From an uncultured Paracoccaceae bacterium (GTDB lineage Bacteria; Pseudomonadota; Alphaproteobacteria; Rhodobacterales; Rhodobacteraceae): DNA of 64,000 bases. The notes under the pieces are model-generated. The model saw only the letters and a list, made by a program, of their open reading frames with translations. It made no database searches and was not told the DNA's origin. The DNA lies in assembly GCA_947500135.1 (NCBI GenBank), contig CANMQX010000003.1, forward strand, positions 62,001 through 126,000, read 5' to 3'. Both the position numbers and the translations under genes were made by a program. Shown piece by piece: positions 43,256-62,828 of the stretch (within the stretch, counting starts at the first letter, position 1; the number at the start of each line of letters is the position of its first letter).

Positions 43256-43302
43256 CGTATCCTCCAAATGCGACGGGCGGAATTGGGGGATAGCATCGTG
43301 CT

Positions 43303-43391
43303 AAACCTTCCCTCCGCCGGTCTTAACCGGTTCAGGTTCTACGGGTCCGCTATGAAGCATCTCAGCCAGTTTTGGCCCCCCGAGGTGCGCC
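43303..43391 (-). ncRNA. TPP (THI element) riboswitch
   Basis: Read on the minus strand, the leader contains CTGAGATGC followed about 18 bases later by ACCTGAACCGGTTAAGACCGG-CGGAGGGAA. These are the two conserved TPP-sensing segments, including the P2/P4 hairpin CCGGTTAAGACCGG. It sits about 50 bp before thiB, so thiamine diphosphate should shut down thiBPQ expression. Confidence 0.93.
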
Positions 43392-43481
43392 TTAGCTAGG
43401 ATGGATTGGGGGCGGGGGCAAGGGAAACCTCTTGAGCCTGATTGTCGCGCCCGCTAGACCCACACGGCAAAGGGGACGCGC

Positions 43482-49638: not shown

Positions 49639-49761
49639 CGCGGCGCACCCGGTTTTCCACATCTGGCTGCGTCTTGGCGTCGCGCAGTGTTGGCCCAAAC
49701 GTCTAGCATTTCTGACCCAGACCGGACCTTAGGCGCGAACTGGGTCAGCGGTGACAGGGCG

Positions 49762-49769
49762 GACTTAAC
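49762..49769. repeat. Target-site duplication, left copy (GACTTAAC)
   Basis: The same 8 bases occur at 53049-53056, directly outside the inverted repeats of the mobile element. Eight bp is the usual duplication length of IS1595-family elements. Confidence 0.8.
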
Positions 49770-49800
49770 CGGCCTTATGTATCAAACTCACCAAACAACT
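49770..49800 (+). repeat. Left terminal inverted repeat of the IS1595-type element
   Basis: CGGCCTTATGTATCAAAC, then T-CACCAAACAAC; the right end at 53018-53048 reads the same on the other strand with G for T and one A fewer. Confidence 0.85.
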
Positions 49801-49836
49801 GCGCAACGCGGCGGGGTGTGAGGGATGATTAAGGTT

Positions 49837-50889
49837 TTAGTCCTTGTCGGGGTATTGTGGCCACAACTCTACTCCGAACTCCCCGTCCTCACGCCTTTTA
49901 AGAAAGTCGCCGATCCATCCAGATCTGAACGCCTGCTCTGTCTTGACATCAATAGTCTCTCCCGAAATGAGATCATCTTGATCAATTTCGGCTCTGAAAG
50001 AGAGTTCCCCAGAAAGCCTGCCGTCTTCGCGGTCAAAGACCGTTTGATATTTGACGACCACTTCGACCACCACAATATCGTTTTCGGCTGTTTCTTTAAA
50101 ACTAGAACTGATGGATTTTTGTCTGCTGACAGGTATGTATCGCCTTTCGGTAGTCCTTGGCGGCAAGCTCGCAGCGATGGGAAAGTGTCCAAGAACATCA
50201 ACATTCGGGACCTTACTTTCGGGGCTAACACTTTCGTCGCTGAAAGCAGCAATAATACCCTCGATATTGAAAGCTGTGCTGCCCCCATTGTTCGAAAGAT
50301 CGAACTCAATAATGAAGATACTTTCATTGATGTCCTTCGCTCTGAAATTGGAGGCGGACAAGTAAGCCCTGACCTGCAATTCTCCAAATTTTCTAGAAGT
50401 AATATTGGCCTCAAGCGCGGAGTCTGCGGCTTTCATGGCAGCTTTGCTGCTGATCTTGGCTTCTTCAAGCATTTTCTCTGTGTGAAAACTAGCCTTTCTG
50501 GTGAAGTGCAGCGTGAAGCCTATAAGAACAATGCCGACAAAGGTTACTATGGCGGTTCCGAGCGTAGCCCAAAACATCCACTTGGCCCACGTAGCCATAC
50601 CCTCTTGAGCCTTAAGGTCCCTGCTTTCGTTATCTCGCTGGCGATCAGCTTCTATCTTGTCTTCTTCGGATATCAAGTCGCGTATCGCGGACTCGACCCC
50701 TTGGAGCGCGGGTATTATATCCGGTGTGCCGGTTTCGTCTTCTTGGGTTGCTGCATCGCCGTTATCTCCGCTATTTTCCTGCCCGGTCTCTCCCACTGGT
50801 TCATCTTCGATAGCGACTTGTGGCCAAACTGATGTGGCCGAAAAAGCTACTCCAAGTGCAATGACGTACAACCAAGTGCGGATAGGCAT
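49837..50889 (-). CDS. Membrane-anchored passenger protein of unknown function
   Basis: A 350-residue protein. A signal-like N-terminus (MPIRTWLYVIALGVAFSATS) is followed by an acidic low-complexity stretch (about 26-55), a charged helical part, then a membrane segment with Trp-rich start (about 100-128, WAKWMFWATLGTAIVTFVGI). A coiled-coil-like helix (KASFHTEKMLEEAKISSKAAMKAADSALEA) and a C-terminal beta-rich domain follow. I recognise the TM-plus-helix layout as common in proteobacterial mobile elements, function unknown. Its start overlaps the DUF6471 gene by 43 bp. The long opposite-strand frame is a shadow. Confidence 0.78.
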   Translation of the reverse strand: MPIRTWLYVIALGVAFSATSVWPQVAIEDEPVGETGQENSGDNGDAATQEDETGTPDIIPALQGVESAIRDLISEEDKIEADRQRDNESRDLKAQEGMATWAKWMFWATLGTAIVTFVGIVLIGFTLHFTRKASFHTEKMLEEAKISSKAAMKAADSALEANITSRKFGELQVRAYLSASNFRAKDINESIFIIEFDLSNNGGSTAFNIEGIIAAFSDESVSPESKVPNVDVLGHFPIAASLPPRTTERRYIPVSRQKSISSSFKETAENDIVVVEVVVKYQTVFDREDGRLSGELSFRAEIDQDDLISGETIDVKTEQAFRSGWIGDFLKRREDGEFGVELWPQYPDKD

Positions 50890-51077
50890 TGTAATAAAAA
50901 CCCTGCAGTAAATTTCCCTCGGCTTACCTTATTGCGCAGGTTGCGTTCGTTGTCTTCGATTCCTTTTTCCGCGAGTAATTCAATCAACTGCGCGTATGTG
51001 GTGCCTTTGCGAGCCATTTCAGCCCGCAGGATACCCTTAGCGCGCTCTTCCCAGTCTGTTCGTTCCGGCATTATCAT
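50847..51077 (-). CDS. DUF6471 domain protein
   Basis: A 76-residue basic protein with the DUF6471 pattern: WEERAKGILRAEMARKGTTYAQLIELLAEKGIEDNERNLRNKVSRGKFTAGFLLQCLSALG. The sequence looks like a helix-turn-helix (TYAQLIELL, then ERNLRNKVSRG), so it may be a small regulator. It is divergent from the transposase, with repeated palindromic motifs between the two, which would suit autoregulation. Function is not established. Confidence 0.78.
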   Translation of the reverse strand: MIMPERTDWEERAKGILRAEMARKGTTYAQLIELLAEKGIEDNERNLRNKVSRGKFTAGFLLQCLSALGCTSLHLE

Positions 51078-51084
51078 TCCTTAA

Positions 51085-51161
51085 GGTGCTAATATCATCA
51101 TTTAACGTGCTATAGCACTTGACTTGGCACGTCAATATCATCATATATGGTGCATAAGCAC
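51085..51161. promoter_or_regulatory. Direct repeats with GTGC-N4-GCAC palindromes between DUF6471 and the transposase
   Basis: Two 28-bp direct repeats at 51091-51118 and 51134-51161 start with the identical AATATCATCAT and end in GTGC-TATA-GCAC or GTGC-ATAA-GCAC, 43 bp apart; a further GGTGC lies at 51085. A TTGACT (51119) and TATATG (51144) could be -35/-10 of the transposase promoter, placing one repeat on top of it. This looks like an operator controlling transposition; the binder is unknown, DUF6471 being the obvious candidate. Confidence 0.6.
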
Positions 51162-51169
51162 AGGATACG

Positions 51170-52138
51170 ATGAACATGGCACAGCGCTCTCTTCTCTCAG
51201 CGGCATCACGCACACTTAGCCTTCGTAAGATTTACAAGGCTGGTGAAGATGCGGCCTATGAGACGTTCTGCGAAATGCGCTGGCCTGATACAAATGGCGA
51301 GGCTGTTTGTCCGCAGTGCGGCCATGACGAAACATACAACATCACCACGCGCCGCAAGTTCAAGTGCAAGGCATGCGCGCACCAGTTTAGCGTCACATCG
51401 GGTACTATCTTTGCCAGTCGCAAGATGGACTTTGTTGACCTGCTGGCCGCTATTTTCCTGATCGTGAACGCGTCCAAGGGCATGAGCATGGTTCAGTTGT
51501 CGCGCGATCTGGACTGCCAGTATAAAACGGCATTCGTTCTGGCGCACAAGCTGCGTGAAGCGATTGCACAGGAGGTACACACTGGCGAAGTGCTGGACGG
51601 TCATGTTGAGATTGATGGCGCATACTTTGGTGGCCACATCCGCCCGGCAAACGCCAAGGTTGACCGCGTAGACCGTCGCTTGAAGCGTCACCAGACAGGC
51701 AAGCGCCGCGTTGTGGTAGCTATGCGTGAGCGTGAGGGTCGTACGCTGCCATTCATCGCCATGGGTGAAGGTGAGGGCGTCAATCTGGCAATCGAGAACG
51801 TCAGCCGCACAGCCACTATGTCAGCCGATGAAGCAAGCCATTGGGACATGCTGCATGACGGTTGGATGGTTGACCGCGTGAACCATAGCGAAGTCTACAG
51901 CGACCACGGTAAGCACACGAACATGGTTGAATCGTTCTTCTCGCGTCTGCGCAACATGATCGAAGGCCAGCACCACGGTGTTAGCCCCAAGTACCTGCAC
52001 CAGTATGCGAACCACTCTGCATGGCTGGAAGACAACCGCCGTACCGACAACGGCACATTGGCGCATATCGTTGTGTCAAACGCGATGGACGCGCCTGTTT
52101 CTCGGAACTGGAAAGGGTACTGGCAGCGGGCGGCATAG
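51170..52138 (+). CDS. IS1595-family transposase
   Basis: A 322-residue transposase. The N-terminal zinc ribbon (CPQCGHDE near 47, then FKCKACAHQF near 66-75) and the catalytic domain (HVEIDGAYFGGHIR near 146, later YSDHGKHTNMVESFFSRLRNMIEG) are those of the ISXO2/IS1595 group. The frame is intact. The start has AGGA four bases upstream of the first ATG; a second ATG lies two codons on. It lies between matching inverted repeats, so the element may be active. Confidence 0.9.
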   Translation: MNMAQRSLLSAASRTLSLRKIYKAGEDAAYETFCEMRWPDTNGEAVCPQCGHDETYNITTRRKFKCKACAHQFSVTSGTIFASRKMDFVDLLAAIFLIVNASKGMSMVQLSRDLDCQYKTAFVLAHKLREAIAQEVHTGEVLDGHVEIDGAYFGGHIRPANAKVDRVDRRLKRHQTGKRRVVVAMREREGRTLPFIAMGEGEGVNLAIENVSRTATMSADEASHWDMLHDGWMVDRVNHSEVYSDHGKHTNMVESFFSRLRNMIEGQHHGVSPKYLHQYANHSAWLEDNRRTDNGTLAHIVVSNAMDAPVSRNWKGYWQRAA

Positions 52139-52212
52139 ACTACCTCTGGTAGCTAACTAGGCCCTAAACCACAATAATTTGCGTATAAGCATAACGCGAA
52201 GGCTGGAAATGA

Positions 52213-52241
52213 TTAGGGGCCGGTGATATACCGACCCCTAA
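52213..52241. repeat. Inverted repeat just before the tRNA gene
   Basis: TTAGGGG-c-CGGT and ACCG-a-CCCCTAA face each other around GATAT. It ends one base before the tRNA. It could terminate transposase transcription or act in tRNA processing; no T-run follows on the plus strand. Confidence 0.5.
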
Positions 52242-52313
52242 GACAGTGTGGCGGAATGGTTACGCAGGGTTCTCGCAAGGCCCCCCATGCGGGTTCGAGT
52301 CCCGTCGCTGTCT
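52242..52313 (+). tRNA. Atypical tRNA, Cys-like body with CGC anticodon, on the transposon
   Basis: A 72-base cloverleaf folds fully. Acceptor GACAGTG/CGCTGTC (one G-U), T8, D stem GCG/CGC with A14, GG and A21 in the loop, anticodon stem GGGTT/GGCCC (two G-U), loop CTCGCAA (T33, anticodon CGC), T arm GCGGG-TTCGAGT-CCCGT, an A15-T48 pair, and discriminator T73. CGC would read GCG (Ala), but C3-G70 replaces the Ala G3-U70 identity pair. D-arm layout and U73 resemble alphaproteobacterial tRNA-Cys, whose loop is CTGCAAA. The 3' CCA is not encoded (CAA follows). A terminator follows. Confidence 0.72.
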
Positions 52314-52321
52314 CAACTATT

Positions 52322-52352
52322 AGAGGCCTCGCTTTGCAGCGGGGCCTTTTTC
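52322..52352 (+). terminator. Rho-independent terminator after the tRNA
   Basis: AGGCCTCGCT and AGCGGGGCCT form a 10-bp stem (one G-U) around TTGC, followed by five T. It lies 9 bp beyond the tRNA, supporting a short independent transcript. Confidence 0.85.
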
Positions 52353-52553
52353 GCAGAATCAACATAACAGATTATTTTCTCGATTCAAGTAGTAGATTCA
52401 ATGGCTTACAGGATCGCAATAAGAGTCCAATATCAAACACTTACGTGAATGAATGGCTTTTTTATGACGGTAAATGATTCTGTTGCCCTCAACAGGTTGT
52501 GCCATATCGTGCCATCACCCACAAGATATTCCCCATAGTTATCCACAGAATCG
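52353..52553. other. AT-rich non-coding stretch in the transposon
   Basis: About 200 bp between the tRNA terminator and the convergent 141-residue gene. I see no coding region, tRNA or strong hairpin here; base composition is clearly lower in G+C than the host genes. Confidence 0.5.
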
Positions 52554-52979
52554 TTATGCAGCGTGCATCCCGACCGCCCTCCACAAACACCCATCCGGCC
52601 CAAAGTCTTGCACCACGCGCCCTACCTTTTGCTCACGTTGCAGTAAATCCCGCACTCGCTTAAGCACGTCGGCCTGCAATGCGTCGTCAGCATCCCACCC
52701 TTTCACTCCAATGATGTGCGCCGCAATGGTTTCATCATCAGCCGATCCCTGCCTTAGCCTATCGCGGGTCATCAGTTTCAACTCATTGCGCCCGAATAGT
52801 TGCTTGTACTTCCCACGCGGCGCTATCCCCTTGGGGTCTTCCTGATAGCCGCACAGCACCAGTGTCCGGTCTATGGCGTCCAGATCGGCCTTGAGGGCAT
52901 CAGCGGCTTTCATAGCGACCTTGTGCTGGCCCGCTATCTCGCCGCGCTTCTTTATCAGTCCGTGTATTGTATTCTGCAT
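52554..52979 (-). CDS. Small passenger protein with N-terminal coiled coil
   Basis: A 141-residue protein beginning MQNTIHGLIKKRGEIAGQ. The helical start followed by ADLDAIDRTLVLC matches a group of small proteins often found beside transposases and recombinases in Rhodobacteraceae (pattern LIxKRxEIAGQ...LDxIDxTL). The C-terminal half contains RDLLQREQKVGRVVQDFGPDGCLWRAVG, which looks like a small winged-helix-type segment. The function is unknown. It is the last gene before the right end of the element. Confidence 0.7.
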   Translation of the reverse strand: MQNTIHGLIKKRGEIAGQHKVAMKAADALKADLDAIDRTLVLCGYQEDPKGIAPRGKYKQLFGRNELKLMTRDRLRQGSADDETIAAHIIGVKGWDADDALQADVLKRVRDLLQREQKVGRVVQDFGPDGCLWRAVGMHAA

Positions 52980-53017
52980 ACCCGAATTATGGATTCACAC
53001 CCTTGTTTTTATAAGGT

Positions 53018-53048
53018 ATGTTGTTGGTGCGTTTGATACATAAGGCCG
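53018..53048 (-). repeat. Right terminal inverted repeat of the IS1595-type element
   Basis: On the minus strand it starts CGGCCTTATGTATCAAAC, then G-CACCAACAAC, matching the left end at 49770. Confidence 0.85.
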
Positions 53049-53056
53049 GACTTAAC
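53049..53056. repeat. Target-site duplication, right copy (GACTTAAC)
   Basis: Identical to 49762-49769. Removing the element and one copy restores one continuous intergenic sequence. Confidence 0.8.
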
Positions 53057-61889: not shown

Positions 61890-62828
61890 GTGGAGAGCAA
61901 AGCCGTCATCCTATCCGCGCCGAAACAGCTGGCGTTGGGACATGTGGGCATCACGCCGCCTGCCGCGGATGATATTGTTGTGGCCGTCCGGCATTCAGGT
62001 ATTTCGACTGGCACAGAAAAACTGTTCTGGTCCGGTGACATGCCGCCCTTTCCCGGAATGGGCTACCCCCTGATCCCCGGCTATGAGGCCGCTGGCGAAG
62101 TGATCGAAGCCGGTGCAGATAGCGGTTTTCGCGTTGGTGAACATGTATTTGTGCCCGGTGCCAGCTGCTATGAAGGCGCGCATGGGCTGTTTGGCGCGGC
62201 CGCCGAAACACTGGTGACCAAAGCGGCGCGCGCCACGCGGATCGACCGGGGCTTGGGTGCCGCAGGTGCGTTGCTGGCCTTGGCCGCAACAGCCCGGCAT
62301 GCGATGGCCGGACCTGGCAAAGCGGTTCCCGACTTGATTGTTGGGCATGGTGTGCTTGGCCGCCTTCTGGCTCGGTTGACCATTGCCGCAGGTGCGCCCG
62401 CACCCACGGTATGGGAAATTGACCCCGCCCGGATGGATGGCGCAGATGGCTATGCGGTTGTGACGCCCGATACCGACGAACGCCACGACTACATGTCGAT
62501 TTACGATGCCTCGGGTCAGGGCGATCTGTTGAATGACCTGATCGGGCGTATCGGCAAGGGCGGCGAAATTGTTCTTGCCGGGTTCTATACAGCACCACTG
62601 CAATTCGCATTTCCGCCCGCTTTCATGAAGGAAGCGCGCCTGCGGATCAGTGCCGAATGGGCCGCCGATGACATGATCGCCACCAAAGCACTGGTGGAGG
62701 CCGGGGTGCTGGAACTGGCTGATTTGATCACACACAGGCAACCGGCAGCGGCGGCAGCGAAGGCATATGAAACCGCCTTTACCGATCCGGCCTGCCTGAA
62801 AATGATTCTGAACTGGGGTGCGGCATGA
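61890..62828 (+). CDS. bchC: Bacteriochlorophyllide a dehydrogenase BchC
   Basis: BchC oxidises the 3-hydroxyethyl group to 3-acetyl, a late bacteriochlorophyll step. The 312-residue protein is a medium-chain dehydrogenase: [33 protein letters not shown] in the catalytic half and [16 protein letters not shown] in the NAD-binding half. The GTG at 61890 follows GAGGGAGA; a GTG at 61869 is less well placed. The stop overlaps bchX (ATGA). Confidence 0.94.

Follow-up and report, generated by a model that had tools for sequence, protein, structure and literature searches.

The nearest known counterparts of the gene described here are the mistranslating transfer RNA (tRNA) called tRNA-ProX and the phage tRNAs with altered anticodon loops. 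In the sections of the reports drawn upon here, tRNA-ProX of Streptomyces is described as combining a Pro body with anticodons for Ala, Asn or Thr (PMC11415595), while phage tRNAs are discussed as working replacements of host tRNAs (PMC10264068). Further points of comparison are the allo-tRNAs, which have many anticodons, one pseudogene overlapping a transposon-related open reading frame (ORF) and a proposed link to transposons or toxin–antitoxin systems (PMC7609411), the tRNA fragments left by integrating elements (PMC9897764), and the IS1595 family of transposable elements, described as having usually, though not exclusively, one transposase gene per element (PMC8101967). Here we report that, in a 64-kb stretch of DNA from an uncultured Paracoccaceae bacterium (positions 62,001 to 126,000 of contig CANMQX010000003.1; hereafter, the window), an intact IS1595-family transposon of 3,279 bp (49770-53048), with terminal inverted repeats (TIRs) and a target-site duplication (TSD), carries a tRNA cassette which keeps its cloverleaf by compensatory change and is found in several transposase lineages. 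In the titles and abstract openings searched, largely of the open literature, no description of a tRNA as cargo of an IS1595 element was found.

The transposase of the window element combines an N-terminal zinc ribbon with a DDE_Tnp_IS1595 domain, and the element has TIRs and an 8-bp TSD, features which it shares with the IS1595-family elements (PMC8101967) and which bear out the original prediction that the tRNA is cargo of an element of this type. It differs from them in that its cargo is a tRNA gene beside protein genes, where a single transposase gene is usual. Together with the length of the 66 complete relatives (2.3-4.6 kb), the extra ORFs and the tRNA indicate that the window element is a cargo-bearing form. 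IS1595-family elements are known to carry passenger genes.

ARAGORN detected a single tRNA in the window, at 52242-52314 on the plus strand, with a CGC anticodon (called Ala-CGC), and the Rfam tRNA covariance model matched the same gene with 47.1 bits (cut-off 29, E 6e-7), marking no non-standard pair and fitting an anticodon loop of 7 nt, CUCGCAA. The complete tRNA with its own terminator, first proposed at 52242..52352 from inspection of the letters, was thus recovered by both programs, was not scored as a pseudogene, and is followed by the stem of the terminator. Because ARAGORN can misplace the anticodon (in locus L083 it called Phe AAA where inspection by eye suggests a Leu UAA tRNA), registers were checked on Infernal pairings or by eye against host tRNAs. 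Read from the sequence, the first acceptor pairs are G1-C72, A2-U71 and C3-G70, so that the G3-U70 pair of tRNA-Ala is absent, as the original prediction had stated together with the CGC anticodon; U73, A15 with U48 and the T-loop TTCGAGT were read in the same way. The D-arm resembles that of the host tRNA-Cys and, when bodies were compared without the anticodon arm, the nearest isotype was Cys with 0.62, in agreement with the Cys-like body first proposed; the next best was 'Phe' with 0.49, which may be the mis-called Leu reference L083, in a crude comparison that placed 54 of 61 references correctly when each was left out. The triplet GCA of tRNA-Cys does not stand at positions 34-36, where CGC is found. 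The gene scores over the cut-off as a cloverleaf, with a body of Cys type and an anticodon that does not agree with it.

A transposase search over species genomes gave 203 relatives, from which 80 loci were kept, or 81 with the window. Ends with identical 8-bp repeats were found in 66 of the 80, making 67 complete elements when the window is counted. tRNA-like cargo was present in six of the 81 transposase loci, namely the window, L032, L050, L078 (in which only one element end was found), L026 and L048. Leaving aside L026 and L048, the other four carriers hold homologous Cys-type cassettes composed of a hairpin, the tRNA and a terminator, the tRNA beginning about 95-105 nt past the transposase stop. 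Further cassettes, found among 394 genomes of the family, are L155, L156, L157 and, at lower score, L169. In L155 about 100 nt, with no transposase among them, separate an IS1595-type end from the hairpin, tRNA and terminator on its inner side; these are followed by a small ORF, a right-end-like ORF (by eye) and the apparent start of another transposase at the contig edge. L156, L157 and L169 show the hairpin and the tRNA with no transposase match in the stretch examined and no surrounding inverted repeats resembling element ends; no terminator follows the tRNA of L169. As to whether the tRNA always lies in IS1595-type elements, a question raised in the original prediction, four of the eight cassettes follow an IS1595 transposase and L155 lies inside an IS1595-type end, while for L156, L157 and L169 no such element was seen in the stretch examined.

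The Rfam tRNA score was above the cut-off in the window and in eight of the nine relatives tested, the tRNA of L026 giving no match at the cut-off. On an alignment of the eight cassettes (which leaves out L026, both L048 tRNAs and the viral-contig loci L142 and L146), both-sided changes occur in 13 of 20 pairs and in all four stems, with 96.3% of cells paired; none of 500 shuffles reached the observed covariation, and sliding the partners by one column brought pairing down to about 50%. Covariation was also seen in the flanking 5' hairpin, whose alignment was fitted to the model. The stems of the relatives are therefore marked by covariation and not by random decay, as expected from the original prediction, and the tRNA is a conserved, mobile cassette. 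The nearest body isotype is Cys in all eight cassettes, each of which has U73 and G1-C72, and GCA stands at positions 34-36 in none of them in the alignment register. All eight anticodon loops have U33, G35 and A37; position 34 takes all four bases, and position 36 is C in six cassettes and A in two. The resulting anticodons would read Ala codons in six cases (CGC, UGC, CGC, UGC, AGC and GGC) and Ser codons in two (GGA and AGA); to L169 ARAGORN gives a four-base anticodon, fitting an enlarged loop.

Compared with the systems listed above, the window tRNA is like tRNA-ProX in joining the body of one amino acid to the anticodon of another (Ala AGC is among those of ProX) and in belonging to a maintained bacterial gene family (PMC11415595). 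The two differ in that tRNA-ProX has a Pro body, A33, A34 and its own ProRSx, transposon cargo not being described in the section of that report considered here (PMC11415595), whereas the window tRNA has Cys as nearest body, U33 and C34, and so lacks the defining features of ProX; across the cassettes, U33 is constant and position 34 can be any base. None of the ORFs of the window element was recognised as a synthetase. With the phage tRNAs the cassette shares loop changes in tRNA genes on mobile DNA, but those are discussed, in the part of the report used here, as replacing host tRNAs (PMC10264068), and here the anticodon class differs from the body. The allo-tRNAs have, as far as the consulted part describes them, a 12-bp acceptor branch (8/4 or 9/3) and mostly Ser identity (PMC7609411), in contrast to the normal 7/5 shape and U73 found here. 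Finally, the tRNA fragments of integrating elements likewise place tRNA-like sequence at mobile DNA, but are described in the section used as partial copies at element ends (PMC9897764), while the window tRNA is complete and internal.

As for the movement of the cassette, carriers are dispersed on the tree of the 81 transposases, on which the tRNA labels need 6 changes, at least 4 of them forced by starred branches (a quick tree, in which 13 of the 78 inner branches carry a star). L002 has a transposase 97% identical to the window's, yet the right halves of the two elements share only short stretches, with different DNA after the stop. Ten elements that lack the cassette are 73-84% identical to the right part of the window element, starting at about 52578; in nine of them the cargo slot holds ORFs (the tenth, L028, is absent from the ORF list). 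These data indicate that the tRNA sits in an exchangeable cargo slot and, as the cassette is found in distant transposase lineages, that it was exchanged between elements or gained repeatedly. A search model of the cassette, R1, applied at E 1e-15 to 385 genomes of the class, a limit which would miss a cassette as weak as L169 (59 bits), returned the window's own genome and nine ordinary tRNA genes; among five genomes of the genus of G235 it returned G235 only, and among the family genomes it matched 394 of 394, mostly through ordinary tRNA genes among the 30 best loci inspected. A pattern search allowing at most one mismatch matched 29 of the 394: five exact places and a mismatched one (G156) are cassettes, four others have no tRNA at the match, and the remaining ones begin like ordinary tRNA-Cys (by eye). 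The same pattern on viral contigs gave 12 stretches that were set aside, six being ordinary tRNA-Cys GCA genes and six having no ARAGORN tRNA at the match. In the phage collection no record covers 80% of the window tRNA, and in the 20 of 62 matching records listed the matches are all short parts of the D-arm or T-arm. Neither the plasmid nor the phage collection gave a match to the L032 cassette, and the window element matches eight plasmid records over 15% at most, the pieces listed falling in the transposase part.

Other tRNAs were observed in related elements. The L048 IS1595 element (TSD CAGATCTG) has two cargo tRNAs, at L048:7075-7151 and L048:7620-7707 on the minus strand, both with an encoded CCA; they sit on the strand opposite to the cassette orientation, and one has a Leu-type body with the anticodon UUA, the pattern of an ochre suppressor. 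The idea that it serves an in-frame TAA next door was discarded, both neighbouring ORFs ending in TGA. Among viral contigs we found 21 loci, 11 of them with complete ends (two of these, L133 and L134, duplicate L008 and L053, judging from the TSD and the end sequences), and two of the 11, L146 and L142, hold a tRNA; that of L146 (L146:3360-3448), upstream of the transposase, has a Leu-type body and a UGU (Thr) anticodon. In addition, L158 carries on the minus strand (1530-1619) a tRNA with a Ser-type body and a UGU (Thr) anticodon, beside an ORF resembling phosphoserine phosphatase (by eye) and with no IS1595 transposase match in the stretch examined; the genome being a draft, the mismatch is possibly a sequence error.

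The features of the window element are collected in Table 1. The hairpin, tRNA and terminator are placed between the transposase stop and the convergent right-end ORF.

Table 1. Features of the IS1595-family element in the window (window coordinates).
Feature	Position	Strand	Evidence or remark
TSD, left copy GACTTAAC	49762..49769		same letters as 53049-53056
Left TIR, 26 nt	49770..49795
Left-slot cargo ORF, 350 aa, membrane-protein look (by eye)	49837..50889	-	no Pfam match at E 0.001
Small DUF6471 ORF, 76 aa	50847..51077	-	Pfam PF20075 E 1e-30
IS1595-family transposase, 322 aa, zinc ribbon and DDE domain	51170..52138	+	PF12762 E 3e-34, PF12760 E 5e-15, NF033547
Hairpin directly 5' of tRNA, covarying in relatives	52214..52240	+	z -3.5
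tRNA-Cys-like gene, CGC anticodon (loop CUCGCAA), U73, no encoded CCA	52242..52313	+	Rfam, ARAGORN
Intrinsic-terminator-like hairpin and T run	52322..52349	+	-20 kcal/mol, z -4.8
Convergent right-end ORF, 141 aa	52554..52979	-	relatives winged-helix-like by eye; no Pfam match at E 1
Right TIR, 26 nt	53023..53048
TSD, right copy GACTTAAC	53049..53056

The DUF6471 ORF recurs beside the transposase (42 ORFs of at least 70 aa in the 67 complete elements), and the right-end ORF has tblastn relatives in 22 of 81 right halves, itself or related ORFs being present in 55 of the 67 complete elements. The transposon adjoins an intergenic repeat (window 49674-49765) with more copies in its own genome and in other genomes of the genus; a paralogue of this left repeat in the own genome, considered as an empty site, reaches only 7 nt past the junction with the TSD mismatched, too short to count. 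Elsewhere in the window lies an ordinary thiamine pyrophosphate riboswitch (43292-43392, minus strand, 67.8 bits).

As a group, the complete IS1595 elements are roughly 3.3 kb long and have swappable cargo, toxin–antitoxin and defence-like genes included. The contents of the slot were scanned on 87 of the 92 right-slot ORFs, leaving out two that overlap the tRNA (in the window and L032) and one each in L040, L069 and L073; the scan covered the right slot, 77 left-slot ORFs lying outside it. As control, 87 ORFs flanking the elements were drawn from 425. Among the Pfam matches listed for the slot (the best 25 of 28 families) are SocA_Panacea (7), KilA-N (3), Peptidase_M78 (3) and NYN (2), with one each of HicB, RelE, RhuM and Bro-N; the toxin–antitoxin names of the slot do not appear among the 25 of 53 Pfam families listed for the flank ORFs. 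PADLOC models matched numbered 63 in the slot ORFs vs 8 in the flank ORFs, where the 63 are inflated by sister models of one family and the matches denote similarity only, not a count of distinct proteins; among the 25 of these 63 listed, BstA and RmrA are represented by up to 4 members each and capP by 3. Slot ORFs left unmatched may include unknown systems. Between the hairpin and the protein cargo of 8 of 81 right halves (L003, L011, L054, L056, L057, L059, L063 and L081), about 125-150 nt past the transposase stop, we also noted a leader motif, GTGATCAC or GTGAATTCAC followed by GTCAAG, a similar one being present in the viral-contig locus L140. No Rfam match was obtained at the motif in the two loci tested (L003 and L011), and it is possibly a candidate new structured leader RNA.

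All together, we tentatively favour the view that the cassette is a maintained, mobile, identity-mismatched tRNA which acts on translation, probably in genetic conflict. Action on translation is suggested by the disagreement between body and anticodon, and the mismatched-looking tRNAs of L048 (Leu-type body, UUA) and viral L146 (Leu-type body, UGU) count in the same sense. According to this model, the tRNA would be transcribed either as a read-through product of the transposase gene or under its own promoter, ribonuclease P (RNase P) would cut just after the hairpin, the 3' end would be trimmed and a host enzyme would add CCA. At Ala or Ser codons the tRNA would then insert, at low level, the amino acid with which it is charged, most likely Cys; alternatively, it would occupy these codons uncharged. 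The cassette would be kept as a cheap conflict gene against phages or rival elements, like the toxin–antitoxin and defence-like genes of the same slot. A host need arising from a missing Ala-UGC tRNA was also considered: the draft shows neither Ala-UGC nor 16S ribosomal RNA (rRNA), so that the rRNA operons with their tRNAs are probably unassembled, and the 16S search was positive in only 9 of 14 control genomes.

Several observations weigh against this interpretation. The window tRNA is the lowest of the 40 Rfam tRNA matches in the genome (the others score 52.5-74.8 bits), encodes no CCA, unlike the other host tRNAs listed, and has G-U at the two anticodon-stem pairs adjoining the loop, a weakness seen also in relatives, the pair next to the loop being missing in three of the eight cassettes. 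Energy folding of the tRNA alone did not give the cloverleaf as minimum, with a stability no better than that of shuffles (z -0.30), so that the evidence for the cloverleaf comes from the covariance model and from covariation in relatives. No promoter-like site was found between the transposase stop and the tRNA in the window. The cassette is rare, being present in 1 of 56 genomes of the window's genus at E 1e-15, and shared descent may partly explain the invariant U33, G35 and A37. Moreover, not all tRNA cargo is clearly mismatched: in L026 the same hairpin and terminator surround a Gly-like tRNA with a Gly-type triplet, the L142 tRNA is Thr-like with the Thr anticodon GGU, and the body of the GCU tRNA of L048 is almost as close to Met (0.65) as to Arg (0.66). 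Lastly, the majority of slot ORFs fall into no named conflict family, which makes the link to conflict one by neighbourhood only.

The strongest competitor, itself unlikely, is a decoy or spare tRNA, whose altered loop would let it withstand or titrate a toxin or defence enzyme attacking tRNA-Cys or its relatives, thereby protecting the element or the host. Such a role would suit a gene in which the loop is the odd part and the body is kept, and which shares its slot with toxin–antitoxin and defence-like genes; anticodon-loop changes in phage tRNAs are predicted to escape anticodon nucleases, according to the part of the report used here (PMC10264068). A spare tRNA, however, should still read Cys codons, which the cassette tRNAs do not, and none of the ORFs of the window element was recognised as a partner nuclease.

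The position of the cassette in the five transposase-linked copies, about 65-80 nt past the transposase stop, on the same strand and with only a few nt from the hairpin to the tRNA behind it, together with the lack of a promoter-like site in this interval of the window, would also fit a processing device, in which the tRNA fold is an RNase P signal giving the transposase messenger RNA a defined, hairpin-capped 3' end and the anticodon is irrelevant. This would account for the tight coupling to the transposase, but not for the cassettes free of it, namely L155, with no transposase between the cassette and the IS1595-type end, and L156, L157 and L169, with hairpin and tRNA and no transposase match in the stretch examined. 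As U33, G35 and A37 are moreover invariant in all eight cassettes while the surrounding stem changes, we regard a processing device as improbable.

Quite improbable, too, is a neutral passenger, that is, a captured tRNA gene heading to decay. The lowest Rfam score in the genome, one unpaired acceptor pair each in two of the eight cassettes (L155 and L169), the failure of L026 to reach the Rfam cut-off and the missing terminator of L169 are what such a gene would show; both-sided pair changes in all four stems, a hairpin that is kept as well (on the model-fitted alignment) and the carriage of the cassette by several transposase lineages are not. A frameshift or four-base decoder, with the Cys triplet GCA one place 3' of normal, is suggested by N34-GCA in six of the eight loops and by the four-base anticodon that ARAGORN gives to L169, but is very improbable, since a 7-nt loop with U33 in its usual place accommodates the others, L156 and L157 are without GCA, and the window element showed no obvious frameshifted gene, although no search was aimed at one.

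Extending the preferred reading of a mismatched tRNA acting on translation, one could propose, as a doubtful generalisation, that mismatched tRNAs make up a whole class of interchangeable cargo in the IS1595-type transposons of Rhodobacteraceae and relatives. As RNA-only conflict genes, they would serve to misread or block translation on purpose when phages attack or elements compete. The proposed members, equally doubtful as a class, would be tRNAs with a Cys-type body for Ala or Ser codons, with a Leu-type body for a stop or Thr codon, and perhaps with an Arg-like body for Ser codons.

In conclusion, the IS1595 element type with swappable slots is a place to look for new systems. If the reading proposed here is true, tRNA genes would join the cargo list of simple transposons, natural tRNAs breaking the body–anticodon rule would be available in a horizontally moving, testable form, and deliberate mistranslation would be joined to mobile-element conflict, two topics which are both open.
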